DNA of 64,000 nucleotides from the NCBI GenBank assembly GCA_026709935.1, contig JAPOSC010000034.1:1-64000 (forward strand). The letters are read 5' to 3'. Positions 8,242-38,215 of the stretch are shown here, one piece after another. Under the pieces are notes generated by a model. The model was not told the DNA's origin. It was given only the letters and a program-made list of their open reading frames with translations, and made no database searches. A program made the position numbers and the translations under genes. The stretch is from Thiotrichales bacterium (lineage in GTDB: Bacteria; Pseudomonadota; Gammaproteobacteria; HK1). The stretch's first letter is position 1; each line of letters begins with the position of its first letter.

Positions 8242-9861
8242 CTACGCGAACCACCAGCGCTCCATGTTCTTCGCGCCGTCCAGCGTCCAGTTGCCCGCCA
8301 CTTTCTCCGGGTGCCGGACGTTGTCCCGCAGACCGTGGAGGTAGTTGGTGAAGCCCCACACCAGGGAGCCGCCGTCTTCGTGCACGAGCCGCTGGCACTC
8401 CCAGTACATCTCCCGCCGCTTGTTATCGTCCAGCTCGGACCGCGCCGCGATGATCAGCGTGTTGAAGCGATCCGCCGCTTCGGTGCCCTTCCAGGCGGTG
8501 TCGTTCCAGTTCGATTCGGCCACGCAGCAGGTCGTGAACATCCAGTCGTTGGTCGGCCGGCCTCCCCAGTAGGAGGTCACGAAGCCCGTGCCGGGCTGAT
8601 TCCACACCGCGGACCAGAAACCGTCCGAGGGCACGCGCCGGACGGAGATGTCGATCCCCGCCGGGGCCGCCGATTCCTTCAGCAGCAGGGCGGCGTCGGC
8701 GGCGCCGTCGAGCGCGGCCTGCGATGCGAGCAGCTCGAGCTTGATGCCCTCCATGCCGGCCTTCCGGATGTGGAACCTCGCCTTGTCCGGGTCGTACTCG
8801 CGCTGCGGCAGCTCGGTGTTGAAGTACTGCTGCGCCGGCGAAATCTGGTGATCGTTGCCCACGATCCCGTGCCCTCCCTCGATCTTGTCGACCATCTCCT
8901 GCCGCTTGGCCGAGAGCTTGAGCGCCAGACGCAGGTCCAGGTTGTCGAAGGGCGGTGTATCGAGCCGCATGACCATGTTGCGGCTCTGGGTCCCGGTGAC
9001 CTCCTGGATCCGTACCCCCCCAACTCTCGCCATCAGGTGCGCGGTCTTCGGTTCGACTGCGTCGATCACGTCGACGGCGCCGGTGGTCAGGGCGTTCAGC
9101 CGCGCCGCGGCATCGAGAATCACCAGGTGCTCGATCTCGTCGAAATGCGCCCGGTCCGCCTTGAAGTAGTCGGGGTTGCGCTTGAAGAACGCCCGCACGC
9201 CGGGATCGAACGTCTCGATGACGTAGGGGCCGGTCCCGTTGCCGCTGGAGATATCGACATTGCCGTCCCCGTCGGAGGCCATGATGACCAGCCGGTAGTC
9301 GCTCAGCAGGAAGGGGAAGTCCGCGTTGGGGGCCTCCAGCCTGATCACCACCTGATCGTCGCCATCCCTGGAGATGTCCTCGATCGGCTCGAACAGCGAC
9401 TTGACGGGCGACGGGCTGTTCTCGGCGCGATGGCGGTTGATCGAGGCGATCACATCCTCCGGCGTCAGGGACTTGCCGTTGTGGAAGGTGACGTCCTTGC
9501 GCAGCTTGAACACCCAGGTCCGCGCCTTGTCGCTGGCCTCGATGCTCTCGGCCAGTTCGGGGGCGATCGAGCCGTCGGGCTGGACTTCGGTCAGGTTGCT
9601 GCCCCAGCACCAGTTGTTGCAGAGCTCGACGACCGCGCCGGTGCTTTTCAGCGCGTCCAGGCTCTCCGAGGTCGACCCCGCGGAGAAGCCCTGGCGCAGC
9701 CGCCCGCCCCTCTTCGGCGTCGCCGCCAGCACCGCACTGTGCATGGAGAGTGCGGCCGGCAGGGTCACGCCCGCGGCCACCGCGGAGGTGATGAACTGGC
9801 GGCGGTCGATCTTCCGACTCGTCAGCTTTGCTTTCAGATCAGCAAGATGCTCTGCTTTCAT
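8242..9861 (-). CDS. ABC transporter substrate-binding protein, family 5 (peptide/opine/nickel type)
   Basis: A 539-residue exported solute receptor of the SBP_bac_5 family. The N-terminus carries a twin-arginine signal (SRKIDRRQFITSAVAAG) with processing near AVLAA. The body shows the family features: KRGGRLRQGFSAGS at the mature start, WVFKLRKDVTFHNGKSLTPE and DDKRREMYWECQ replaced here by DNKRREMYWECQRLVHED near the C-terminus. AGAGGAGC lies a few bases upstream of ATG 9861. No permease or ATPase gene is adjacent, so it is an orphan here and must work with components elsewhere if functional. The ligand cannot be told; relatives bind di- and oligopeptides. Its 3' end abuts the truncated methylase remnant, marking the edge of the accessory block. 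Confidence 0.85.
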   Translation of the reverse strand: MKAEHLADLKAKLTSRKIDRRQFITSAVAAGVTLPAALSMHSAVLAATPKRGGRLRQGFSAGSTSESLDALKSTGAVVELCNNWCWGSNLTEVQPDGSIAPELAESIEASDKARTWVFKLRKDVTFHNGKSLTPEDVIASINRHRAENSPSPVKSLFEPIEDISRDGDDQVVIRLEAPNADFPFLLSDYRLVIMASDGDGNVDISSGNGTGPYVIETFDPGVRAFFKRNPDYFKADRAHFDEIEHLVILDAAARLNALTTGAVDVIDAVEPKTAHLMARVGGVRIQEVTGTQSRNMVMRLDTPPFDNLDLRLALKLSAKRQEMVDKIEGGHGIVGNDHQISPAQQYFNTELPQREYDPDKARFHIRKAGMEGIKLELLASQAALDGAADAALLLKESAAPAGIDISVRRVPSDGFWSAVWNQPGTGFVTSYWGGRPTNDWMFTTCCVAESNWNDTAWKGTEAADRFNTLIIAARSELDDNKRREMYWECQRLVHEDGGSLVWGFTNYLHGLRDNVRHPEKVAGNWTLDGAKNMERWWFA

Positions 9862-25140: not shown

Positions 25141-26781
25141 CTACATGTTCGGATAGTTGGGTCCCCCCCCGCCCTCGGGGGTGATCCAGTGGATGTTCTG
25201 CGTCGGATCCTTGATGTCGCAGGTCTTGCAGTGTACGCAATTCTGCGCGTTGATTTGCAGCCTCGGCGCGCCCGATTCCCGGTCCACGATCTCGTATACG
25301 CCGGCCGGGCAGTAGCGCTGCTCCGGGGCGTCGTATTCGGCGAGATTGACCGCGATCGGCACCGCGTCATCCTTCAGGGTGAGGTGCACCGGCTGGTCTT
25401 CCTCGTGGTTCGTGTTCGAGAGGAAGACCGACGAGTTCCGGTCGAAGCTCACCACTCCGTCGGGCTTCGGGTACTCGATGCGCGGGCACTCGGACGCCTT
25501 CTTCAGTGCGGCATGGTCCGCATGGTGGTGCAGCGTCCACGGCGCCCTGCCCCGCAGCAGGTAGGTGTCGATCCCGGAGTAGAGCATCCCGCTCCACAGT
25601 CCCCAGCGAAACGATGGCCGCAGGTTGCGCACGCGGTGCAGTTCGTCCCACAGCCAGGTGCCTTCGAGCCGCGACCGGTAGTCAGCGACCTCCGTTGCCG
25701 AGGACGATTCGTCGCGCAGGGCGTCGAAGATCGCCTCCGCCGCGGTCATGCCGGACTTCATGGCGGTGTGCGTACCCTTGATCTTGGGCACGTTGAGGAA
25801 TCCGGCGGTATCGCCGACGAGCAGACCGCCCGGAAAGGTCAGCTTCGGAAGGGACTGGAGGCCGCCTTCGCTGATTGCGCGGGCGCCGTAGGCGATCCTC
25901 CGCCCGCCCTCGAAGGTGGGGCGGATCCGGGGGTGGGTCTTGAAGCGCTGGAACTCCTCGAACGGAGCGAGATGCGGGTTGGCGTAGTCGAGCCCGACCA
26001 CGAACCCCACCGCGACCTGGTGGTCCTCCAGGTGATAGAGGAACGAACCGCCGTAGGTGGAGCGGTCGAGCGGCCATCCAAGGGTGTGCACGACCAGCCC
26101 TTGCTCGTGCTTCGCAGGATCGACTTCCCACAGCTCCTTGATGCCGATCCCGTAGGTCTGCGGATCGACCCCGTGGCGGAGATCGAAGCGCTCGAACAGC
26201 GACTTGGTCAGGTGGCCGCGGCAGCCTTCGGCGAACACCGTGACCCGCGCGTGCAGCTCGACCCCCGGCTCGAAGCTCGGCTTCGGCTGCCCGTCGTTTC
26301 CTACTCCCATGTCCCGGGTGGCGACGCCCTTGACCGCGCCGTCTTCGTGGTAGAGCACCTCCGAGGCCGGAAAGCCCGGGAAGATCGAGACATCGAGCGC
26401 TTCGGCCTGCTCGCCGAGCCAGCGGCACAGGTTCCCGAGGCTGATGATGTAGTTGCCCTGGTTGTGCATCTGCGGTGGCGTCGGGAGCCGCACCGCGCCG
26501 CCCCGGGTCAGCAAGAAGAACCGGTCTTCACGCACGGGGGTGTGCAGGGGGGCGGGAGGGTCACGGTCCTTCCAGTCCGGGATCAGCTCGTCGAGCGAGC
26601 GCGGTTCCAGCACCGCGCCGGACAGGATGTGGGCGCCGACCTCGGAGCCTTTCTCGACGATGCAGATCGACAGGTCCGTGCCGTGCTCCTCGCAGAGCTG
26701 GCGGAGCCTGATCGCGGTCGCGAGTCCCGAAGGTCCCGCCCCGACGATGACCACATCGAACTCCATCGACTCGCGTTCCAT
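25141..26781 (-). CDS. etfD: Electron transfer flavoprotein-ubiquinone oxidoreductase
   Basis: A 546-residue membrane-associated iron-sulfur flavoprotein that reoxidises ETF and reduces ubiquinone. The FAD fold is [20 protein letters not shown], and [20 protein letters not shown] and SGMTAAEA belong to the flavin/quinone domain. The C-terminal 4Fe-4S ligands are in [10 protein letters not shown] and [22 protein letters not shown] 26781 follows GGGAGGAGC. It lies head-to-head with etfBA across 177 bp, and in line with the acyl-CoA dehydrogenase, so the complete route from acyl-CoA to quinone is assembled here. Length and motifs are complete. Confidence 0.95.
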
Positions 26782-26958
26782 GTCTGCTCCTCCCGACCGG
26801 ATCCGCGATGTCCCGGCGACATTGGGCATTTTCGTCGCGTCGTCGCGGGGGAGCAAGACGGCGCCGACGCCGCGCGTTGCGCGCCGTAGAGGTGGCCATT
26901 AAGCTTGCGCGTCTTTTTTCGGGTGCCCGAAACACTGGTGGCGCGAGGGACGTGGACG
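26782..26958. promoter_or_regulatory. Divergent promoter region between ETF-QO and etfBA
   Basis: A 177-bp spacer separates the divergently transcribed ETF-QO and etfB starts, so both promoters should lie here, giving coordinated expression. I cannot point to convincing -35/-10 pairs or an operator. Confidence 0.4.
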
Positions 26959-27708
26959 ATGAAGGTACTGGTCGCTGTCAAGCGGGTGATCGACTACAAC
27001 GTGAAGGTCCGAGTCAAGGCGGATCAGAGCGGTGTCGAACTCGCGAACGTGAAGATGTCGATGAACCCGTTCGACGAGATTGCGGTCGAGGAGGCGCTGC
27101 GGTTGCGGGAGGCGGGAAAGGCCGAGGAGGTGGTCGCGGTCTCGCTCGGGGCGCAGCCGTGCCAGGAGACGATCCGTACCGCCCTCGCCATGGGCGCCGA
27201 CCGCGGTATCCTCGTCCTCACCGAAGCGGCGCTCGAGCCGCTCGCCATCGCCAAGCTGATGAAGGCGCTCGTCGAGCGCGAGCAGCCCGGGCTGGTCATC
27301 ACCGGCAAGCAGTCGATCGACGGCGACAACACTCAGACCGGCCAGATGCTCGCCGCCCTGCTGGGCTGGCCGCAGGGAACGTTCGCATACCGGATTGAAA
27401 TCGACGACGGGGAGATGAACCTCACCCGCGAGATCGACGGGGGCCTGGAGACCGTTCGGCTCAGGATGCCCGCGGTGGTGACCACCGACCTGCGGCTCAA
27501 CGAGCCACGATTTGCATCCCTGCCCAATATCATGAAAGCGAAGAAGAAGCCCATCGACACCGTGACTCCGGAAGACCTCGGCGTCGATATCACCCCGCGG
27601 GTGAAGACGCTCCGGGTCACCGAGCCGCCGAAGCGGGATGCCGGCGTGCGGGTCGAGACAGTGGCCGATCTTGTCGATGTGCTGAAGAACGAAGCGAAGG
27701 TGATCTGA
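26959..27708 (+). CDS. etfB: Electron transfer flavoprotein subunit beta
   Basis: EtfB binds AMP and pairs with EtfA to carry electrons from acyl-CoA dehydrogenases to the quinone reductase. The 249-residue protein starts [20 protein letters not shown], contains [21 protein letters not shown] and [17 protein letters not shown] (AMP site), and carries the ETF beta signature around [20 protein letters not shown] then AKKKPI. ATG 26959 is preferred over the upstream in-frame start because the family begins there. The etfA start follows its stop without a gap. Confidence 0.95.
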
Positions 27709-28647
27709 ATGAGCGTCCTGGTTATCGCGGAACACGACAACGCCGCACTCGCTGCGGCCACCCTGAACACCATTGCCGCCGCCCGCGAGCTGGATGACGA
27801 CGTTCACGTGCTGGTCGCCGGCACCGGGTGCGCCGGGGCGGCGGACGCCGCGGCGAAGGTCGCCGGCGTTGGCAAGGTGCGTGTCGCGGACGACGCAGCT
27901 TATGCCAACCAGCTCGGGGAGAATCTTGCCGCCCTGATCGTGAGCATCGCGGGCGAGTACACCCATGTACTCGTCGCCGCTACCAAGGCCGGCAAGAACG
28001 TGCTCCCGCGAGCCGCGGCGTTGCTGGATGTGTCACCGATCTCGGACATCAGCGGCATCGAGTCGGCTGACACCTTCGTGCGCCCCATCTACGCCGGCAA
28101 CGCGATCGCCACCGTGCAGTCGAGCGATGCGATCAAGCTGCTCTCGGTCCGTGCGACTTCGTTCGAACCCGCCGCGGAGGAAGGCGGCGCCGCCGTGGTG
28201 GAGAACGTCGAAGCGGCGGGCGACAGCGGTCTGTCCACGTTCGTCGGGCAGGATCTCACGCAGTCCGAACGCCCCGAACTCACTTCCGCCCGCATCGTGA
28301 TCTCGGGCGGGCGCGGGATGCAGAACGGGGAGAACTTCGCGTTGCTGGAAGATGTCGCCGACAAGCTCGGGGCCGCGGTCGGCGCTTCCCGCGCCGCGGT
28401 CGACGCCGGATTCGTGCCCAACGACTATCAGGTCGGCCAGACCGGCAAGGTGGTGGCTCCCGACCTCTACATTGCGGTGGGGATCTCGGGCGCAATCCAG
28501 CATCTCGCCGGGATGAAGGAGAGCAAGGTGATCGTCGCCATCAACAAGGACGAGGAGGCGCCGATCTTTCAGGTCGCGGACTACGGCCTGGTGGCGGACC
28601 TGTTCGAAGCGGTGCCGGAGCTGAGCGCGGAGCTGTCGAAGTCCTGA
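27709..28647 (+). CDS. etfA: Electron transfer flavoprotein subunit alpha
   Basis: EtfA holds the redox-active FAD of the ETF heterodimer. The 312-residue protein shows the adenine nucleotide fold in the N-terminal domain and, in the C-terminal FAD domain, [40 protein letters not shown], then [26 protein letters not shown] and [20 protein letters not shown], which is the standard ETF alpha signature. It begins directly after etfB with no intervening base. The DNA after it is convergent with the peroxiredoxin gene. Confidence 0.95.
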
Positions 28648-29506: not shown

Positions 29507-30460
29507 TCAGCCGACGTAGCGGCCGAGCCGCACCGCCGACTCCCCGCGGCGTAGCCGTCGCGACGGCATGATGAGGACGCACTCCGGGTACGGAGTGCGG
29601 ACCGTGCGCTCTCCGTCCCAGCCGATGATGGTGCCCTCGTCGGGGATGACTTCCATGCCCTCGTAGTCCTCCACGAACCGGAAACGGTCGCTCTCGATGG
29701 TGACCGGCCCGCTGACCTCGATGATGCGCTGCACCGCCGGCGCCGCCCGCGGCAACCGTTCCGTCGCCCAATCCAACGCCACGACCCCGGTGCACGCCAG
29801 GAACCTCAATGCCACGTCGATGGCGACCTCTTCCGTCCCGCGTGTCCAGTGCTGCCCGCACTCGACGAGCAGGGCGTTGCCGGCGCTTTCCGGATTGCTG
29901 AACCGCGCGTAGTCGCGCATTCGGGTGCCGGCGGTGTGCCCCGCGTCGCATACCACAAGGGTCGGTGCTCCCACATCGAGGGCGAGCCGCCGGCCCTTGT
30001 CCAGAGGACCCGCGAGCATCAGCGGCGGGTTCGTGTGATGCATGGAATGGATGTCGAGCAGCAGGTCCACGGTGTCTATCAGGTGGCGGACCTCCCGCGC
30101 CCGGCGAAGCTCGACGCTGTCGCGAGGCCCATCGAGCACCTCGGCGGACCAGACTCGATTGAAGTCCTCGTCGACATGGCGGGAAGCGGCGGGGTTCGCG
30201 GGGTCGAACCGAGCGTATGCGGCCACGTTCATGAAGGCCAGGGTGAGCTTCCCTCGCTCGGGGCGGACTTCCTCGCGCACGAGGTAGTCGAGTGCATGCG
30301 CGCCGCACAGCTCGTTGCCGTGTACCAGCGCGCTCAGCATCACGTGCGGTCCGGGCGCTCCGCTGTCGAGCGTCGTCACGAAGTCGATGCCGGTGTTACT
30401 CCGACGATACGGCGTGATGTCGAGGGCGCTCAGCTCGACCGGGTACGAATTCGGGGTCAT
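29507..30460 (-). CDS. Succinylglutamate desuccinylase/aspartoacylase family hydrolase
   Basis: A 317-residue zinc hydrolase of the AstE/AspA (M14-like) family. Metal ligands are in MLSALVHGNELCGAHALDYL (HxxE) and LLDIHSMHHTN (the third ligand His), with the catalytic glutamate region near NALLVECGQHW. Members remove acyl groups from N-acylated amino acids or related compounds. It is divergent from the molybdenum oxidoreductase across 249 bp and is likely part of the same regulon: an N-acyl substrate could be imported by the TRAP system and trimmed. That link is inference from gene order. The lid and C-terminal barrel of aspartoacylases seem present. Confidence 0.8.
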   Translation of the reverse strand: MTPNSYPVELSALDITPYRRSNTGIDFVTTLDSGAPGPHVMLSALVHGNELCGAHALDYLVREEVRPERGKLTLAFMNVAAYARFDPANPAASRHVDEDFNRVWSAEVLDGPRDSVELRRAREVRHLIDTVDLLLDIHSMHHTNPPLMLAGPLDKGRRLALDVGAPTLVVCDAGHTAGTRMRDYARFSNPESAGNALLVECGQHWTRGTEEVAIDVALRFLACTGVVALDWATERLPRAAPAVQRIIEVSGPVTIESDRFRFVEDYEGMEVIPDEGTIIGWDGERTVRTPYPECVLIMPSRRLRRGESAVRLGRYVG

Positions 30461-30609
30461 GTCCGCGGCTCGATTCGATGGATTGTTCCGACGAACGGCC
30501 GCCGGGTGGGAAATACGCCATCATCGATACAACATGCAGAGTGCCAGTCGCACGCAATGCCATGCAATACCGGCGCCGCGGTTGCCAGCATGAATGTCCG
30601 CTCCGAATG

Positions 30610-30623
30610 TTGACGAATGTCAA
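30610..30623. promoter_or_regulatory. Candidate TetR-type operator
   Basis: TTGAC-GAAT-GTCAA is a perfect 5-bp inverted repeat with a four-base centre, in the AT-rich spacer between the divergent hydrolase and oxidoreductase genes. GAATGT occurs three times here (30592, 30605, 30615). The TetR regulator at the end of the downstream cluster is the natural candidate to bind it. Confidence 0.4.
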
Positions 30624-30709
30624 AGTAGTAAGTAAATTTTTCATTAACAACAGATGACGTTACGACGTTTTTCCGTGACGATACACAGCAACGGGGAGAA
30701 ATCCACGCA

Positions 30710-33517
30710 ATGAGTTTGGAAACGAGGAACGGCTGTCGATTGCTGGTAAACGGAGAAAGCGTCTCGGTGAATCCCGGTTCGGCGACGCTGCTCGACGTCC
30801 TGCGCGACGACCTCGATCTCACAGGCACGAAAAAAGCGTGTGACAACGGCGAGTGCGGTAGCTGCATCGTGCTCATGCGAGGCAAGCCGACCAAAGCATG
30901 TCTGCTCCCGGCTCGGCGTGCGGCAGACAAGGACATCGTGACCATCGAGGGGTTGGCGCCGGACGCACGCGTCTTGAAGGCCGAGGATGACCTGTCGGTG
31001 CTGCACCCGTTGCAGCAGGCATTCCTCGTCAAGGGTGCGACGCAGTGCGGCTTCTGCATTCCCGGCATGATTCTCAAGGCGCATTCGCTCCTGCGGAGCA
31101 AACCCGATCCGACTCGCGCCGAAATCGTCAAGAGCCTCTCGAAGAACCTGTGCCGTTGCACTGGCTACACCAAGATCATTGAGGCGGTCGAATACGCGGC
31201 CGAGCTCATCCGATCAGGCGAGTCGGCGGCCGAGCCTCCACGTGCCAACGGCCATGCAGTCGGTGTCAGCGTGGCGCGGTTCGACAGCCCGGCCACCGTG
31301 AACGGAGCGGCGAAGTACGGAGCCGACCTGAAGATGCAGGGGATGCTCCACGGGAAGCTGCTGCGCAGCCGTCACCATCACGCGCGCATTTTGTCCATCG
31401 ACGTGAGTGAGGCGGTCAGAATGCCGGGAGTGGAAGCGGTCGTGACGGCAGACGATATACCGGGAACTCCTTACCTGCCCAACTGTCAGCCGCAGGTCTT
31501 CGTGTTTCCACGCGACCGCATCCGCTTCAAGGGGGAAGCACTCGCCGGCGTGGCGGCCGTCTCGGAGGAGGTTGCGGCGGCTGCGCTGGAGAAGATTCGT
31601 GTCGAGGTGGAGGTGCTGCCGCATGCAGTGGAGATCGGCGAGGCCGCCGACCCTTCGGCGACACCCCTCTACGATCATTCGCCGCGCGTTTCTCCGTCCG
31701 AGGAAATTAGTTGCGGAGATATCGGGAAGGGCTTCGCCGAAGCAGATGTCATCGTCGACAACGAGTACACCGTACCCGTTCGCGAACATGCGGCGATGGA
31801 GCCCGAATCCGCGCTCGCCTGCGAAGAGAACGGCCAGGTCGTCATCAGGACCGGGCTCTATCATGCGTTCGTGCAGGGGACCGAATCCATAGCGAACAAC
31901 CTTGGGCTCTCACCCGGCGAAGTGCGCATCGTATGCCCGGCGATGGGCGGCAATTTCGGCACTCGCGGGGACACCCTGATCGCAGTCGCTTCCGCGATGC
32001 TTGCACGCAAGACCGGCCGGCCGGTGAGAATGGTGTTCTCCCGCGAGGAATCCATCCTCGGCTCGTGTAAGGCTCCCTCCGTCAACATGCGCTATCGCAC
32101 CGGTGCAACACGTGACGGACGCATCGTGGCGGTCGACGCGGAGGTCATGCACGGCGCGGGAAGCTGGGCACCATTTCTCGTCGATCGCACCACCCGCGGA
32201 GTCGAGCTCTGCTACTACGAGACTCTGGGGGCCCTGCTCTCACACGTCACCGGTCCCTACGAGATCGAGAACGTCCGAGCCCGCGCCTGGGACGTTCTGA
32301 CCAACGGCCCACGGTACGTGCCTCTTCGCGGCACCAATGCGAACTACCTGCCGCTGGCCTACGAATCGCAAGTCGATCTGGTCGCTGAGCGGCTCGGCCT
32401 CGATCCACTCGATGTTCGGTTACGTAACGCTATTCGTCCCGGATCCAGAACCCACTTCGGTCAACGGCTCACCGAGAGCGTCTCGATGGTGAAGGAACTC
32501 GAGACGCTGCGCCCGCACTACGAGGCGGCCCGGCAGCGGCTCGCACACCGCCGCGCCGCCGCGTGCGGAGCTTGGCGACCCGGACTCGGAATTGCCTGTG
32601 GGTGGCGCAACATCGGCTACTTCAAATCGCCCATTTCGGCCGGCTGCGAACTCGACCCCGAGGGCTCCGTGCACGTTATGGCAGGAACTGTCGAGCAGGG
32701 CCAGGGACCCACCACACAGTTCGCCCAGATTGCAGCCAACGCGGTCGGGGTTCCGATGAATGCAATGCGGGTCACTCTGGGCGACACCACCGCCGCGCCC
32801 TATCCGGTTCCGACATTCAGTTCGATCACGACGGTCGGTACCGGAAAGGCGGTGCAGATGGCGGCGGAGAAGCTCCGAGCCCAAATCTGTCGGGCTGCGG
32901 CCGAACTGCTCCAGTCGGATGCGGACCAGGTGACGATCAGTGGGTCAATGGCGCATCTCGTATCGGAGCCCGAAACAGGGGTCTCTCTCGAAGAGATCGC
33001 GAGACATTTCGCCGTGCACGGCCTCTCCAGCCTGTCGGAAGCTGCCCTTGAATGGAGCGGCGAGGCACCGACCATTCTGTACGGCTACAACGCCGGGCTG
33101 ATCGAACTGGAAGTGAACACCGACACCGGGCAGGTGCGGCTGCTCAATCACGTAAACGTCTGTGACCCCGGCACGCGAATCAATCCTCTCGCGGTTGAGG
33201 GGCAGATAGACGGCGCCATCGCGTTCGGGGTGGGGTTCGCTCTGTCCGAGCGGTTTCACCCGGACGTTCCGGCAACGCTCGAAGACTATGGACTGCCCTC
33301 GACCGTTGACGTACCGGATTCGACGACCCGTCTCTACATCGAAGACCCGCTGGAACGGGGGCCGTTCGGGGCAAAGAGCATGGCGGAGCACCCCGGAATA
33401 TCGGTAATTCCCGCCATCGTCAGCGCGATTGCCAGCGCTACCGGTGCCCGGGTACGCGACATCCCGGCGACGCCGGATCGAATCAGGGCCGCACTCGCGG
33501 CTCGGGAAACCGGCTGA
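30710..33517 (+). CDS. Fused 2Fe-2S / molybdopterin xanthine dehydrogenase-family oxidoreductase
   Basis: A 935-residue protein joining an N-terminal 2Fe-2S module to a large molybdenum module, without a separate FAD domain or FAD subunit gene nearby. The first cluster cysteines are in KKACDNGECGSC and PTKACLL, the second in ATQCGFCIPGM and NLCRCTGYTK. The molybdenum part begins about residue 195 (ATVNGAAKYGADLKMQGMLH), has NFGTRGD and EQGQGPTTQFAQIA, and ends with the region holding the active-site glutamate, RGPFGAKSMAEHPGISVI (usual form GAKGVGEP). It hydroxylates a purine, N-heteroaromatic or aldehyde substrate. The acceptor is unknown since FAD is absent. GGGGAG lies before ATG 30710. 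It is the head of a cluster with a TRAP transporter and TetR. Confidence 0.88.
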   Translation: MSLETRNGCRLLVNGESVSVNPGSATLLDVLRDDLDLTGTKKACDNGECGSCIVLMRGKPTKACLLPARRAADKDIVTIEGLAPDARVLKAEDDLSVLHPLQQAFLVKGATQCGFCIPGMILKAHSLLRSKPDPTRAEIVKSLSKNLCRCTGYTKIIEAVEYAAELIRSGESAAEPPRANGHAVGVSVARFDSPATVNGAAKYGADLKMQGMLHGKLLRSRHHHARILSIDVSEAVRMPGVEAVVTADDIPGTPYLPNCQPQVFVFPRDRIRFKGEALAGVAAVSEEVAAAALEKIRVEVEVLPHAVEIGEAADPSATPLYDHSPRVSPSEEISCGDIGKGFAEADVIVDNEYTVPVREHAAMEPESALACEENGQVVIRTGLYHAFVQGTESIANNLGLSPGEVRIVCPAMGGNFGTRGDTLIAVASAMLARKTGRPVRMVFSREESILGSCKAPSVNMRYRTGATRDGRIVAVDAEVMHGAGSWAPFLVDRTTRGVELCYYETLGALLSHVTGPYEIENVRARAWDVLTNGPRYVPLRGTNANYLPLAYESQVDLVAERLGLDPLDVRLRNAIRPGSRTHFGQRLTESVSMVKELETLRPHYEAARQRLAHRRAAACGAWRPGLGIACGWRNIGYFKSPISAGCELDPEGSVHVMAGTVEQGQGPTTQFAQIAANAVGVPMNAMRVTLGDTTAAPYPVPTFSSITTVGTGKAVQMAAEKLRAQICRAAAELLQSDADQVTISGSMAHLVSEPETGVSLEEIARHFAVHGLSSLSEAALEWSGEAPTILYGYNAGLIELEVNTDTGQVRLLNHVNVCDPGTRINPLAVEGQIDGAIAFGVGFALSERFHPDVPATLEDYGLPSTVDVPDSTTRLYIEDPLERGPFGAKSMAEHPGISVIPAIVSAIASATGARVRDIPATPDRIRAALAARETG

Positions 33518-33609
33518 AACACGCGCTGGCACGGCCTTCGTGTTACTCCAGCCATATCGGAGTACGCCTATGCGGGTGGGCACCGCAACTTCACATGGGG
33601 ATGACTGTC

Positions 33610-34635
33610 ATGAAGAAAATCCGCACGCAGAGAAAGCGCCTGAGTCGTCGTACTTTCGTCAAGCAAACCGGCGCTGTGACCGGGGCGGCCGCTCTTTTCG
33701 GGACGCGGGCGCCGGCGTTTGCCGCGGGCAAGCACAAGTTGCGCTACATCGCATTCATCAACCGAAACACGGTCTGGGGGAAACCTTATGACTTCCTCGC
33801 CCAGGAAGTTGATCGGATGTCGGGAGGCGAGCTGGAGATCGAGTACGCGGGTGGCTCGGACGTGATTGGTGGCTTCGACGCGCCGGAAGCGGTCGCAAAC
33901 GGTGTCTTCGACATGAGCCACTCGGCCAATGCGTACTTCGCAGGAGCCATGCCGTCGTCCATCTCTCTCGCGAGCGGATCCGCGTCGGTGGACGCACTGC
34001 GGGAATCCGGCGCCATCGATGCCTACGCGGACATTCTCATGAAGCAGCGCGGTGTGATGCTGCTCGGCATCCCGCTCACCGGCGTGGGCTACGTGTTTCA
34101 GGTACGCGGCCGCCCAGACTCGCTGGCTTACTTCAAAGGCAAGAAGATCCGCTCCATCCCGCTCTACGATCCGATTCTGCAGGCACTGGGAGCGACTCCC
34201 GTCACTACGTCGCCAGCCGAAGCCTACACCGCGATGGAGCGCGGGGTGGTCGACGGGCTAGGGTGGCCCGACATCGGACTGCTGGACTTCAAGTTCTACG
34301 AGCAGGCGAAGTACATCATGGCGCCGACCTTCTACTCGCTACGCACCGTCACCCTACTCAATCCGAACTCCTATCAGCGGCTACCCGCCCCGCTACAGGA
34401 CATCCTGATCAAGGCGTCGCATTCCGCCGATGCCATCGGTAATCAGTGGGCCAAGGAGAAACGGGCAGCGGAGCACGCGGAGATGGAGAGGCACGGTGTC
34501 GAAATCGTTTCTCTGTCCGAAGCGGAATCGAAGCAGTTCGTCGACCTCACCGAGGAGATGCTCTGGTCGAAGATTCACGAGCTTGCTCCGGAAGACGCGA
34601 ATCGCCTGAGACCCCTTTTCAAACAGGCAGGCTGA
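33610..34635 (+). CDS. dctP: TRAP transporter solute receptor, DctP family
   Basis: A 341-residue periplasmic receptor of a tripartite ATP-independent transporter. The N-terminus has a twin-arginine signal (KRLSRRTFVKQTGAVTG) with processing after AFAAG. The body shows the DctP-type strands LRYIAFINRNTVWGKPYDFL, then VANGVFDMSHSANAYFAGAM, and VTTSPAEAYTAMERGVVDGL, the usual pocket helix with the carboxylate-binding arginine nearby (KIRSIP). I prefer ATG 33610, which has GGGG spaced about eight bases upstream, over ATG 33595 or 33601. The ligand is probably an organic acid or the oxidoreductase substrate. A strong hairpin follows it before dctQ. Confidence 0.9.
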   Translation: MKKIRTQRKRLSRRTFVKQTGAVTGAAALFGTRAPAFAAGKHKLRYIAFINRNTVWGKPYDFLAQEVDRMSGGELEIEYAGGSDVIGGFDAPEAVANGVFDMSHSANAYFAGAMPSSISLASGSASVDALRESGAIDAYADILMKQRGVMLLGIPLTGVGYVFQVRGRPDSLAYFKGKKIRSIPLYDPILQALGATPVTTSPAEAYTAMERGVVDGLGWPDIGLLDFKFYEQAKYIMAPTFYSLRTVTLLNPNSYQRLPAPLQDILIKASHSADAIGNQWAKEKRAAEHAEMERHGVEIVSLSEAESKQFVDLTEEMLWSKIHELAPEDANRLRPLFKQAG

Positions 34636-34661
34636 GTCAGCGAACGCCCAGGTGCTCAATC

Positions 34662-34707
34662 GCCATACGGCGGGTCCGAACCGCACGGCTTGGACCCGCC
34701 GTATGGC
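34662..34707 (+). promoter_or_regulatory. 16-bp intercistronic hairpin between dctP and dctQ
   Basis: A perfect 16-bp inverted repeat (GCCATACGGCGGGTCC at 34662-34677 and its complement at 34692-34707) with a 14-base loop lies in the spacer between the receptor and the small membrane subunit. Such hairpins stabilise upstream mRNA or attenuate transcription, giving an excess of the receptor over the membrane subunits. No T-run follows, so it is not a simple terminator. Confidence 0.8.
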
Positions 34708-34741
34708 ATGAAGGACGGCAGCGGACGTCGAGAACGTGCCA

Positions 34742-35278
34742 ATGACGACAGCCACTCTGCTTCGCGGATTCGAGAGGGTGGCCGCCTTGCTCGCGGCGGT
34801 GGCCGGGGGGCTGATCCTGGTCATGAGCCTCTGGATTACGTATGACGTACTATCACGCTACCTCTTCGATGTGGCTTCGCCTTGGTCCTTCGATCTGTCC
34901 GAGTACTCGCTCGTGTGGATTACATTTCTCGGGGCTCCGTGGGTTCTGATGCAGGATCGGCATGTCCGCATCGAGATTCTGGTCGATGCCCTGCCGGTGC
35001 CGGCGCAACGAGCGCTCGGAGTCACAATGTCGATAATCGCAATCGGAGTGTGCGTGGTCCTTGCCTGGCGAACCGGCATCGCCGCCGTAGAATACTTCCG
35101 TAACGACATCATGATGCCGAGAATCTGGCGCATCCCCAGAATTTGGCCTTATGCGGTGGTACCGATCGGCAGCTTCCTTCTCGCATGCGCGTTCGTCGTT
35201 CGTCTCGGTCTCTACCTGGTCGACCCGGACCCGGAGAGCACGCTGCGCGCGCGCGCCACTGCCGTTTCCGGCCGCTGA
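34742..35278 (+). CDS. dctQ: TRAP transporter small permease subunit, DctQ family
   Basis: A 178-residue four-helix membrane protein forming the small subunit of the TRAP transporter. The family pattern is visible: a first helix (LLAAVAGGLILVMSLWITYDV), the conserved LSRYLFDVASPWSFDLSEYS with a W between helices, WVLMQDRHVRIEILVDAL in the cytoplasmic loop, and further helices to residue about 165. The frame begins at GTG 34736; ATG 34742 is my choice, with GAG nine bases before it. It couples DctP to the DctM channel and ends 12 bp before dctM. Confidence 0.85.
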   Translation: MTTATLLRGFERVAALLAAVAGGLILVMSLWITYDVLSRYLFDVASPWSFDLSEYSLVWITFLGAPWVLMQDRHVRIEILVDALPVPAQRALGVTMSIIAIGVCVVLAWRTGIAAVEYFRNDIMMPRIWRIPRIWPYAVVPIGSFLLACAFVVRLGLYLVDPDPESTLRARATAVSGR

Positions 35279-35290
35279 CGGGATCCGCTC

Positions 35291-36607
35291 GTGGAAGGGG
35301 AGTGGATCCAGACCCTGGGATTCTTCCTCGTCCTGCTGACGCTGATGATGCTCAGCGGTATGCCGGTCGCGCTCGGGTTCCTCACCCTCAACATCATCGG
35401 TCTCTACCTCTTTCTCGGCGGCGAAGGCGCGTTGTCCTTGCTTGCCACGAGCACCTTCTCGTCGGTCGGACAGTTCGCGCTCGTCCCGATCCCACTGTTC
35501 CTTCTGATGGGCGAGCTTCTGCTGAAGACCGGCCTCGCCGCCAGGACGGTCGAGGTGGTCGACCAGTGGATCGGACGCATCCCCGGTCGACTCTCCCTGT
35601 CGTCCGTCGGTGGGGGAACCCTTTTCGGTGCACTCAGCGGCGCCAGCATGGCGTCGGTCGCGATGCTCGGGTCGACTCTCGTGCCAGAGATGACGCGACA
35701 CGGCTACAAGCCGGCGATGTCGGTCAGTTCCATCCTCGCGGGGGGCGGGCTGGCGGTACTCATTCCTCCGAGCGCTCTTGGGGTCCTGCTTGGAGCGATG
35801 GCAAAGGTATCGATCGCCGAGCTCCTTCTCGGCGGCATCCTGCCCGGACTCGTGCTCGCCATCATGTACGTCGCCTATTTTGCGATTCGGGCCACCGTGC
35901 ATCCCGAGCTTGCACCCCGGTACGCAGCGCCGCCGGTGCCCCTTGGGGCGAAGCTGCGCGGACTCCTCGAAATCTCCCCGCTGCTCGTACTAGTACTGGT
36001 GGTGACCGGCTTCATCTTTTTCGGGATCGCCACACCGTCGGAGTCTGCCGCGATGGGGGTCGTGGCCACGCTCGTGCTCGCCGCTGGGTATCGCCGGTTG
36101 AGCTGGGCAGCGCTGAAATCGTCCGTGATGGCGGCCATGACCACGACTTCGATGATGCTGCTGGTCATCGTCGGTTCGTCGGGTTTCAGCCAGTTACTTG
36201 CTGCAACCGGCGCGACATCGGCCCTGGTCGCCGCAGTCGCGGCACTCGATATGTCGCCCATCGTCACCGTCATTGTCATGCAGCTCATCGTATTGATGTT
36301 GGGATGCTTCATCGACACGATCTCGATCATGCTCGTGGCCATACCGGTCTTCATGCCGGTGGTCCTGGCCATCGGTGTAGATCCCATCTGGTTCTGCATC
36401 CTGATCCTAGTGCAGCTCGAGCTCGCCGGCATCACGCCGCCGTTCGGAGTGCTGCTGTTCGTGATGAAGGGAGTGCAACAACAGCTTCGGATCGGCGAGA
36501 TCTACGGAGCGGCGCTGCCGATCGTGCTCATTCAAATCCTGCTGGTGACTCTTCTCATGACGTTCCCGTCGATCGTGCTTACTCTGCCCGGACTGATGTC
36601 GAGATAG
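35291..36607 (+). CDS. dctM: TRAP transporter large permease subunit, DctM family
   Basis: A 438-residue channel-forming subunit with about twelve membrane helices. It shows the DctM hallmarks: MMLSGMPVALGFLTLNIIGL near the start, LSGASMASVAMLGSTLVPEM (GASxAxxA..G), ILAGGGLAVLIPPSALGVLLG, and the C-terminal GCFIDTISIMLVAIPVFMPV and LAGITPPFGVLLFVMKG elements that line the Na+ and substrate sites. The start is GTG 35291. TRAP transporters use the Na+ gradient, not ATP. With dctP and dctQ it forms a complete importer that probably supplies the oxidoreductase. Confidence 0.93.
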   Translation: MEGEWIQTLGFFLVLLTLMMLSGMPVALGFLTLNIIGLYLFLGGEGALSLLATSTFSSVGQFALVPIPLFLLMGELLLKTGLAARTVEVVDQWIGRIPGRLSLSSVGGGTLFGALSGASMASVAMLGSTLVPEMTRHGYKPAMSVSSILAGGGLAVLIPPSALGVLLGAMAKVSIAELLLGGILPGLVLAIMYVAYFAIRATVHPELAPRYAAPPVPLGAKLRGLLEISPLLVLVLVVTGFIFFGIATPSESAAMGVVATLVLAAGYRRLSWAALKSSVMAAMTTTSMMLLVIVGSSGFSQLLAATGATSALVAAVAALDMSPIVTVIVMQLIVLMLGCFIDTISIMLVAIPVFMPVVLAIGVDPIWFCILILVQLELAGITPPFGVLLFVMKGVQQQLRIGEIYGAALPIVLIQILLVTLLMTFPSIVLTLPGLMSR

Positions 36608-36614
36608 CCACACG

Positions 36615-37253
36615 ATGCCTGCCCGACCCACCCGACCCACCAAGCGGGATGCTGCCGCCACCAAGGAGAAGATTCTGCGAGCCGGCCTCATCGAGTTCGG
36701 CACCAGAGGGTTCGGTGGCGCTCGCACCGAGACCATCGCGAAGCGCGCAAAGTGCAACATTCGCATGCTGTACCACTATTTCGAAAGTAAGGAAGGGCTC
36801 TATCTCGCATGTCTGGAGCGGGTGTACACCGAAATTCGGACCAGCGAGCGCGAACTCGACCTCCTCGACTGCTCTCCCGTCGAAGGCATCACGAAGCTCG
36901 TCGAATTCACGTTCGACCATATGCTGAGCCACCAGGACTTCGTGCGCATCGTCGTTGTGGAGAACATGCAGCGCAGCCGATTCCTGAAGAAGCTGGCGCC
37001 CCTGCCGAGCGCCGCCTCGGACCTCGTGGCCACGATTCGTGAAATCCTCGATCGCGGCAGCCGCGAAGGACGGTTCAGGACCGGCATCGATGCAGTGCAG
37101 CTTTATGTGTCGATCCTGTCACTGAGCTACCTGCACCTCTCCAATCGCTACACCCTTTCGTTCACCTACGAGACCGATCTCGCCGCCCGCGAATGGATCG
37201 TCCAACGTCGGGTCCACGTCACCGAGATGGTGCTTTCCTACTTGTCCGTATGA
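36615..37253 (+). CDS. TetR family transcriptional regulator
   Basis: A 212-residue TetR-type repressor: an N-terminal helix-turn-helix (KEKILRAGLIEFGTRGFGGA, then RTETIAKRAKCNIRMLYHYF with the typical YHYFESKEGLY) and a helical ligand-binding domain resembling the TetR_C_33 or RutR-like type in the C-terminal part. Seven bases separate it from dctM, so it is the last gene of the oxidoreductase and TRAP operon and most likely controls it by binding its own substrate. A matching operator candidate is the inverted repeat at 30610-30623. Confidence 0.9.
   Translation: MPARPTRPTKRDAAATKEKILRAGLIEFGTRGFGGARTETIAKRAKCNIRMLYHYFESKEGLYLACLERVYTEIRTSERELDLLDCSPVEGITKLVEFTFDHMLSHQDFVRIVVVENMQRSRFLKKLAPLPSAASDLVATIREILDRGSREGRFRTGIDAVQLYVSILSLSYLHLSNRYTLSFTYETDLAAREWIVQRRVHVTEMVLSYLSV

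Positions 37254-37932: not shown

Positions 37933-38215
<283 letters not shown>

Follow-up and report, generated by a model that had tools for sequence, protein, structure and literature searches.

How does a molybdenum enzyme that lacks a flavin module exchange its electrons? This question is raised by an operon in a 64,000-nt stretch of DNA from a Thiotrichales bacterium (the window; contig JAPOSC010000034.1 of assembly GCA_026709935.1), in which a fused [2Fe-2S]/molybdopterin oxidoreductase without a domain for flavin adenine dinucleotide (FAD) is followed by a complete TRAP importer (DctP, DctQ, DctM) and a TetR-family regulator. A first-pass annotation of the window had grouped these genes with a divergent aspartoacylase-like gene (AspA) and had left the electron acceptor blank. 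We tentatively interpret the locus as a horizontally acquired, TetR-repressed uptake-and-oxidation operon that would pass electrons to an FdxA-type ferredoxin, a reading to which we assign somewhat less than an even chance.

The molybdenum enzyme, the TRAP importer and the TetR regulator form one true unit, which is conserved, rare and patchily spread. Relatives were sought by a pattern-based scan of one genome per species across 84,980 species, and families were assigned by comparing Pfam and NCBIfam model scores with their cut-offs. The scan yielded 13 orthologous loci whose enzymes shared 64–78% identity, the next relatives reaching 35% at most; an extra contig end (L048) belonged to the same genome as locus L035. 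The order enzyme–DctP was kept at 13/13 loci, and DctQ and DctM were present at all 12 loci with longer contigs, one extra gene being inserted after DctP at L036. TetR was found at 11 of the 13 loci, the two exceptions being L035, whose contig breaks off inside DctP, and L036, whose contig stops about 220 bases past DctM; in HTCC2150 (L038) it was placed divergently upstream rather than at the operon end. The grouping of enzyme, importer and regulator proposed by the first-pass annotation is thus borne out by a gene order kept across 13 syntenic loci, and the scattering of homologues that it had named as contrary evidence was not seen. Its seven genes also proved real, with coordinates and families confirmed by Pfam and NCBIfam (Table 1). 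In the window, the five same-strand operon genes are open and of full length, with gaps of 77, 100, 12 and 7 bases. DctP, DctQ, DctM and TetR each scored above the Pfam cut-off, giving all three TRAP components and a regulator with both a helix-turn-helix and a TetR C-terminal domain.

According to their records, the carriers are mostly alphaproteobacterial metagenome-assembled genomes (MAGs), with a few isolates and one contig labelled Planctomycetaceae. In the latter (PBTE01000008.1, L036), the module proteins are each 61–71% identical and hydantoinase A/B genes lie upstream; either the module crossed between phyla or the contig was mis-binned. Another 16 genomes from the genus and family of the window contained no enzyme orthologue, and neither there nor in the genome of the window itself did any further full-length match to the enzyme exceed 38% identity. 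An orthologous DctP occurred in only one of 369 sampled genomes of the class, namely the window's own, and in the order of Pelagibius 2 of 61 genomes were positive, both being carriers already among the known set. Furthermore, the GC content at third codon positions (GC3) of the five operon genes was 0.73–0.80, compared with 0.86–0.88 in the AspA, phasin, EtfB, ETF-QO and UvrD genes. From this foreign GC3 and the patchy distribution we infer that the operon was acquired horizontally.

The enzyme combines Fer2, Fer2_2, Ald_Xan_dh_C, MoCoBD_1 and MoCoBD_2 domains with no FAD domain, and scores above cut-off for PF02738, PF20256 and PF01315 covering the molybdopterin-binding and a/b hammerhead domains, identified it as a member of the xanthine oxidase family. 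Eight Fe–S cysteines (C44, C49, C52, C64, C113, C116, C148 and C150) were invariant, each being covered by 12–13 orthologue rows, and the catalytic glutamate (Glu869 in Desulfovibrio gigas aldehyde oxidoreductase, MOP; Glu1261 in bovine xanthine oxidase), placed by alignment at Glu893, was present in 14/14 sequences. In a tree of 37 molybdenum subunits, the 12 complete module enzymes formed one clade (support 100/100; stem length, 1.63 changes per site). This clade was separate from D. gigas MOP and Thauera HcrA (both approximate rows, that of MOP also long) and from the seven of the window genome's 11 paralogues that were included, deeper nodes being unresolved. The phylogenetic placement suggested in the first-pass annotation put the enzyme in a clade of its own, deep and uncharacterised, in the xanthine oxidase family. 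Gly420 and Ala508 (14/14 each) occupy the positions of Glu802 and Arg880 in an alignment with the human enzyme. We take these two residues (bovine numbering) to be the purine-binding residues of xanthine dehydrogenase, which makes it unlikely that the module enzyme is a xanthine dehydrogenase. Selenium-dependent xanthine dehydrogenase was rejected as well (TIGR03311, 489.5 bits versus 830.45).

No FAD subunit gene lay within the operon, and a search of the 13 loci, 10 of which show their upstream sequence, found no FAD_binding_5-type protein. The same search detected FAD proteins at eight other molybdenum-enzyme loci; a further one, L041, gave no FAD match on a contig piece that ends right after the molybdenum gene. 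In the window's own genome (G000), FAD_binding_5 occurred at seven places, six of them with a molybdenum-subunit gene beside, while the seventh was the small subunit of xanthine dehydrogenase, xdhA (C55:149468; TIGR02963, 560.8 bits, cut-off 467). No FAD partner encoded elsewhere in that genome was found, in line with the absence of an FAD partner stated in the first-pass annotation. The xdhA gene (G000:C55:149468–149956, L003) stands beside an HIUase gene with no molybdenum-subunit match nearby on the contig, and its large subunit may lie on contig C30. Of 12 MoCoBD_1 places in the genome, those on C17, C30, C34 and C63 also had no FAD gene on the contig.

What could take the place of the flavin is suggested by the upstream sequences, which were readable at 10 of the 13 loci and, as an eleventh, at L048 (at least 1.3 kb each; L028–L030, L032–L034, L036–L038, L040 and L048). 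A divergent gene for an FdxA-type ferredoxin was present in 8/11 of these regions (NF045490, 160.9 bits at L040, cut-off 135), and at L030 the contig ends before such a gene could show. In addition, nine of the 11 regions encoded a ferredoxin-linked enzyme, namely the 2-oxoacid:acceptor oxidoreductase KorAB in seven cases (alpha subunit at L040: TIGR03710, 621.7 bits, cut-off 482.75) and an FNR-like flavoprotein in two (L032 and L034). The FNR-like protein scored above two Pfam cut-offs and below the NCBIfam cut-off. No KorA match was found in three rhodobacterial module genomes (G059, G061 and G065), two of which are the FNR carriers. Since FdxA and KorAB or FNR genes stand upstream in relatives and no FAD protein was found at the 13 loci, a ferredoxin would most likely be the electron partner. 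The first-pass annotation was hence right about the missing FAD module, but the acceptor it left blank now has a named candidate.

The control region is likewise conserved. The predicted promoter and the probable operator, a TAAGTAA-N4-TTACTTA dyad, are listed in Table 1; even with 3 mismatches allowed, the 64 kb contain no other match to the dyad (0.01 expected). Among the regions of 12 relatives examined, 11 carried the dyad before the enzyme gene with 0–2 mismatches (0–1 in 10 of them), mostly twice. The L036 region had no TAAGTAA dyad, and the two-mismatch match of L031 was equalled in 6/300 composition shuffles. In all 11 dyad-bearing relatives, a TTGAC box starts 17–19 bases before the gene-nearest dyad copy. 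This copy carries two mismatches in 5/11 relatives, as in the window, whose operator is therefore not specially degenerate. With no more than one mismatch allowed, 10 of 13 genomes had the dyad at their module. The first-pass annotation had pointed to a TetR-type inverted repeat in the promoter region. An exact repeat, TTGAC-GAAT-GTCAA, indeed exists at 30610–30623 (the window holds 4 such repeats at up to one mismatch, against an expectation of 1.08). However, the −35 box of the predicted promoter forms its first arm, and its second arm is kept in 0/11 dyad-bearing relatives. It was rejected as the operator, which is most likely the conserved dyad beginning 19 bases further on.

In the mechanism that we favour, the TRAP importer would take up an organic carboxylate, and the molybdenum centre would hydroxylate this compound or an intermediate derived from it. 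Electrons would flow from the molybdenum centre through both [2Fe-2S] clusters, and a soluble FdxA-type ferredoxin would accept them instead of a built-in FAD. In the relatives, the ferredoxin gene diverges from the shared operator region, accompanied by genes for KorAB or an FNR-like protein. With the partner operon missing at the window site, a ferredoxin encoded elsewhere would have to serve there; the best FdxA match in the genome, an intact 107-aa frame with 62% identity (G000:C14:6281–6604), is the best candidate. TetR would bind the dyad over the −10 box and be released by the imported compound or its product. Oxidation is favoured on account of the base rate in the family.

Several observations weigh against this interpretation. 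A ferredoxin gene is missing from the upstream regions of L036 and L038, and the window site itself has no gene for ferredoxin, KorAB or FNR. Ferredoxin genes are common, and gene neighbourhood is the sole link between them and the enzyme. The dyad was not enriched genome-wide, with 17 matches versus 18 for the reversed control at up to one mismatch in 14 genomes. What speaks for the dyad is its place alone: fifteen of the 17 forward matches lay in the control region of the module (places were compared for forward matches only). Of the other two, one was on the HTCC2150 contig, 18 kb away, and one was in G058, with no placement at the module. Three genomes (G000, G063 and G066) gave zero matches at this threshold. 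Finally, known KorAB systems generate reduced ferredoxin, a role more in keeping with a reductase than with an oxidase. Both KorAB and FNR normally reduce ferredoxin in heterotrophs. Here, they substitute for each other at the same divergent position, the three genomes without a KorA match including two with FNR, and this interchange suggests a shared task, presumably ferredoxin reduction, which points to a ferredoxin-fed reductase. KorAB, using a 2-oxoacid, or FNR, using NADPH, would then reduce the ferredoxin that feeds the [2Fe-2S] clusters, and the molybdenum centre would strip an oxygen or hydroxyl group from the imported compound, as in 4-hydroxybenzoyl-CoA reductase minus its flavin subunit. 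A passage in PMC9973337 describes a similar supply in Thauera, where KorAB serves benzoyl-CoA reductase, which draws electrons from ferredoxin, and a reference title in the same paper gives ferredoxin as the donor of 4-hydroxybenzoyl-CoA reductase. The alpha subunit of the latter is among the better-scoring relatives of the module enzyme (435 bits), but its curated score of 994.55 is not reached and no flavin subunit is present; moreover, most members of the xanthine oxidase family oxidise their substrates, and the carriers are probably aerobic bacteria. An FAD-free molybdenum reductase that deoxygenates an imported carboxylate in Alphaproteobacteria, with ferredoxin fed by KorAB or an NADPH-ferredoxin reductase, therefore appears possible but unlikely.

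Another carrier, such as a cytochrome, a quinone or ETF/ETF-QO, might take the electrons, with ferredoxin, KorAB and FNR serving a different step of the pathway. Genes for etfBA and ETF-QO are indeed close in the window (25141–28647, 2.1–5.6 kb from the operon), and two relatives with upstream sequence have no local ferredoxin gene. A search of the relatives' 13 loci gave no EtfA, EtfB or ETF-QO, however, and ETF was rejected as the partner for this lack of conservation. We regard this explanation as a whole as rather improbable. Even less probable, in our estimate, is that the window genome holds a displaced and perhaps non-functional copy of the operon, its partner operon being missing from the site. 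The KorAB of this genome is encoded on another contig (C70, 66% identity) with no dyad in the 300 bases before the KorA gene, and it is probably a housekeeping copy, since genomes of the same genus without the module (G001 and G003) also carry KorAB. The intact reading frames of the five operon genes and the preserved Fe–S cysteines and catalytic glutamate nevertheless argue against a defunct operon.

Clues to the substrate come from the importer and from neighbouring genes. The nearest solved relatives of DctP, by sequence as well as by Foldseek, are the structures of Polaromonas Bpro_4736 (4mnc/4mni; 27–30% identity), and the ligand in 4mni is presumably benzoylformate. By VIA-align Z score, IseP and TeaA tie with 4mnc/4mni for a DctP model whose mean predicted local distance difference test score (pLDDT) was only 67.6. 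Arg186 of DctP, present in 14/14 sequences, aligned with the KIR segment of 4mnc. According to PMC4646407, an arginine at this place in TRAP proteins restricts ligands to carboxylates; by homology, Arg186 would bind a carboxylate ligand. Near the module, a protein of about 579 aa (C7) was encoded in six loci and a DUF3726 protein in five. On plasmids of Sulfitobacter and Phaeobacter (NZ_CP083567.1 and NZ_CP081222.1), the C7/DUF3726 pair stands beside genes for an aldehyde dehydrogenase, a dipeptidase and a BCCT transporter, and the plasmid-encoded dehydrogenase and dipeptidase are 73–87% identical to products of genes near the module in L037 and L038. This company hints, as a lead only, at a betaine-like or N-heterocyclic carboxylate as the imported compound. 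C7 had no Pfam or NCBIfam match, its best solved relative (E 0.42) was not convincing, and a single PHROG match was weak (E 0.023; the model was poor, with a pLDDT of 48.4). No paper on DUF3726 or on the molybdenum enzyme/TRAP/TetR module was found in the open-licence literature, subscription papers lying outside that scope. Homarine, whose pathway is referred to in a passage of PMC13390433, was also considered as a substrate.

The aspartoacylase-like gene, which the first-pass annotation had enlisted as a zinc deacylase possibly acting on the same compound, is a bystander and not part of the module. It is adjacent and divergent to the operon in the window, and its product could in principle deacylate the same compound under a shared TetR control region. 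Yet it was not found at any of the 13 relatives' loci (upstream visible in 10, plus L048), and homologues (55–56% identity) occurred in only two of the 13 module genomes, on contigs other than that of the module. The GC3 of AspA is host-like (0.858), and no operator was found on its side of the intergenic region, where the best match had five mismatches. We consider such a partnership very improbable. The protein belongs to the superfamily PF24827, its score for the curated aspartoacylase model NF002601 being 28.9 bits versus 180. In Pelagibius and Kiloniellaceae, AspA adjoins LysR and peptide-transporter-like genes, as named from our reading of the sequences.

Other neighbours were recorded as well. 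Seven of the 13 loci (L032, L033, L034, L036, L037, L038 and L040) encode a small AhpD/carboxymuconolactone-decarboxylase-like protein, which may stand to either side of the module. A family-5 solute-binding protein of the window (8245–9861, minus strand) is 73% identical to one at L034:4821–6029; the Roseovarius gene (L034) is separated from the module by about 2 kb, the window gene by 20 kb. After the phasin gene, a GC-rich unit of 38 bases is repeated in tandem about three times (84% matches) at positions 37933–38049, and a tRNA-Arg (CCG) gene follows directly at 38052–38128.

Table 1 Coordinates of the module, its control elements and associated features (window positions unless a locus is named)
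Feature	Position	Strand	Basis
Aspartoacylase/AstE-like hydrolase (AspA), neighbour outside the module	29507–30460	−	PF24827, 44.3 bits, cut-off 25
Predicted sigma-70 promoter of the operon, TTGACG-17 nt-TAAATT	30610–30638	+	9/12 matches; 1 found versus 0.3 expected in shuffles
Probable operator of TetR, TAAGTAA-N4-TTACTTA (2 mismatches); overlaps the −10 box	30629–30646	+	
Fused [2Fe-2S]2/molybdopterin oxidoreductase, xanthine oxidase family, 935 aa, no FAD domain	30710–33517	+	Pfam/NCBIfam, orthologous clade
DctP, TRAP solute-binding protein	33595–34635	+	PF03480, 109.5 bits; Arg186 in 14/14 orthologues
DctQ, TRAP small permease	34736–35278	+	PF04290, 100 bits; kept in 12/12 relatives with contig reaching it
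DctM, TRAP large permease	35291–36607	+	PF06808, 239.6 bits; kept in 12/12 relatives with contig reaching it
TetR-family regulator, TetR_N + TetR_C_29	36615–37253	+	PF00440, PF17938
C7/DUF3726 pair in relatives	L040:1554–3913; L028:160–2552; L033; L037; L038:14412–16768; L048	− (L040)	

The module defines a deep, uncharacterised molybdenum-enzyme clade whose importer, regulator and operator are fixed, which makes its substrate and the direction of its reaction testable. An unknown acceptor is replaced by a named candidate, ferredoxin. It may be a natural case in which the flavin module of a molybdenum enzyme is replaced in trans by ferredoxin together with FNR or KorAB. Among known systems, the TRAP transporters (DctPQM) share with its importer the three components, the conserved arginine and the fold. 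Molybdenum enzyme and TRAP importer may have been combined more than once, as a second cluster in a Syntrophomonadaceae MAG (L044:6727–14389) indicates, where a distantly related molybdenum hydroxylase with a split molybdenum subunit, an FAD subunit and a separate 2Fe-2S protein surrounds a full TRAP importer. Xanthine dehydrogenase has the same molybdenum and Fe–S domains and the catalytic glutamate in common with the module enzyme, which differs by the lack of an FAD domain; the window genome, moreover, has a separate xdhA. 4-Hydroxybenzoyl-CoA reductase (HcrABC; 1rm6) consists of three chains including a flavin subunit. Its molybdenum subunit is related, but the module enzyme remains below the cut-off of the alpha-subunit model (435.4 bits versus 994.55), and no gene for an FAD subunit was found at the 13 loci. 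If the enzyme were indeed a ferredoxin-fed reductase, it would be a ferredoxin-only counterpart of HcrABC, for which ferredoxin as donor is named in the reference title cited above, and a rare case of a xanthine oxidase family member used in reverse. The closest parallel is D. gigas MOP (1sij, 1vlb; NF045668), which likewise carries two [2Fe-2S] clusters and the molybdenum domain on one chain without FAD, so that FAD-free fused enzymes already have a precedent; a passage in PMC3877041 describes flavodoxin as its proposed acceptor. MOP gave the module enzyme its best family score and is its best solved relative, but this score of 507.3 bits is less than half the curated cut-off of 1100, so that the likeness is one of layout. 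The module enzymes differ in that they make up a deep clade of their own, with a gene context of a TRAP importer, a TetR regulator and, in relatives, FdxA with KorAB or FNR.

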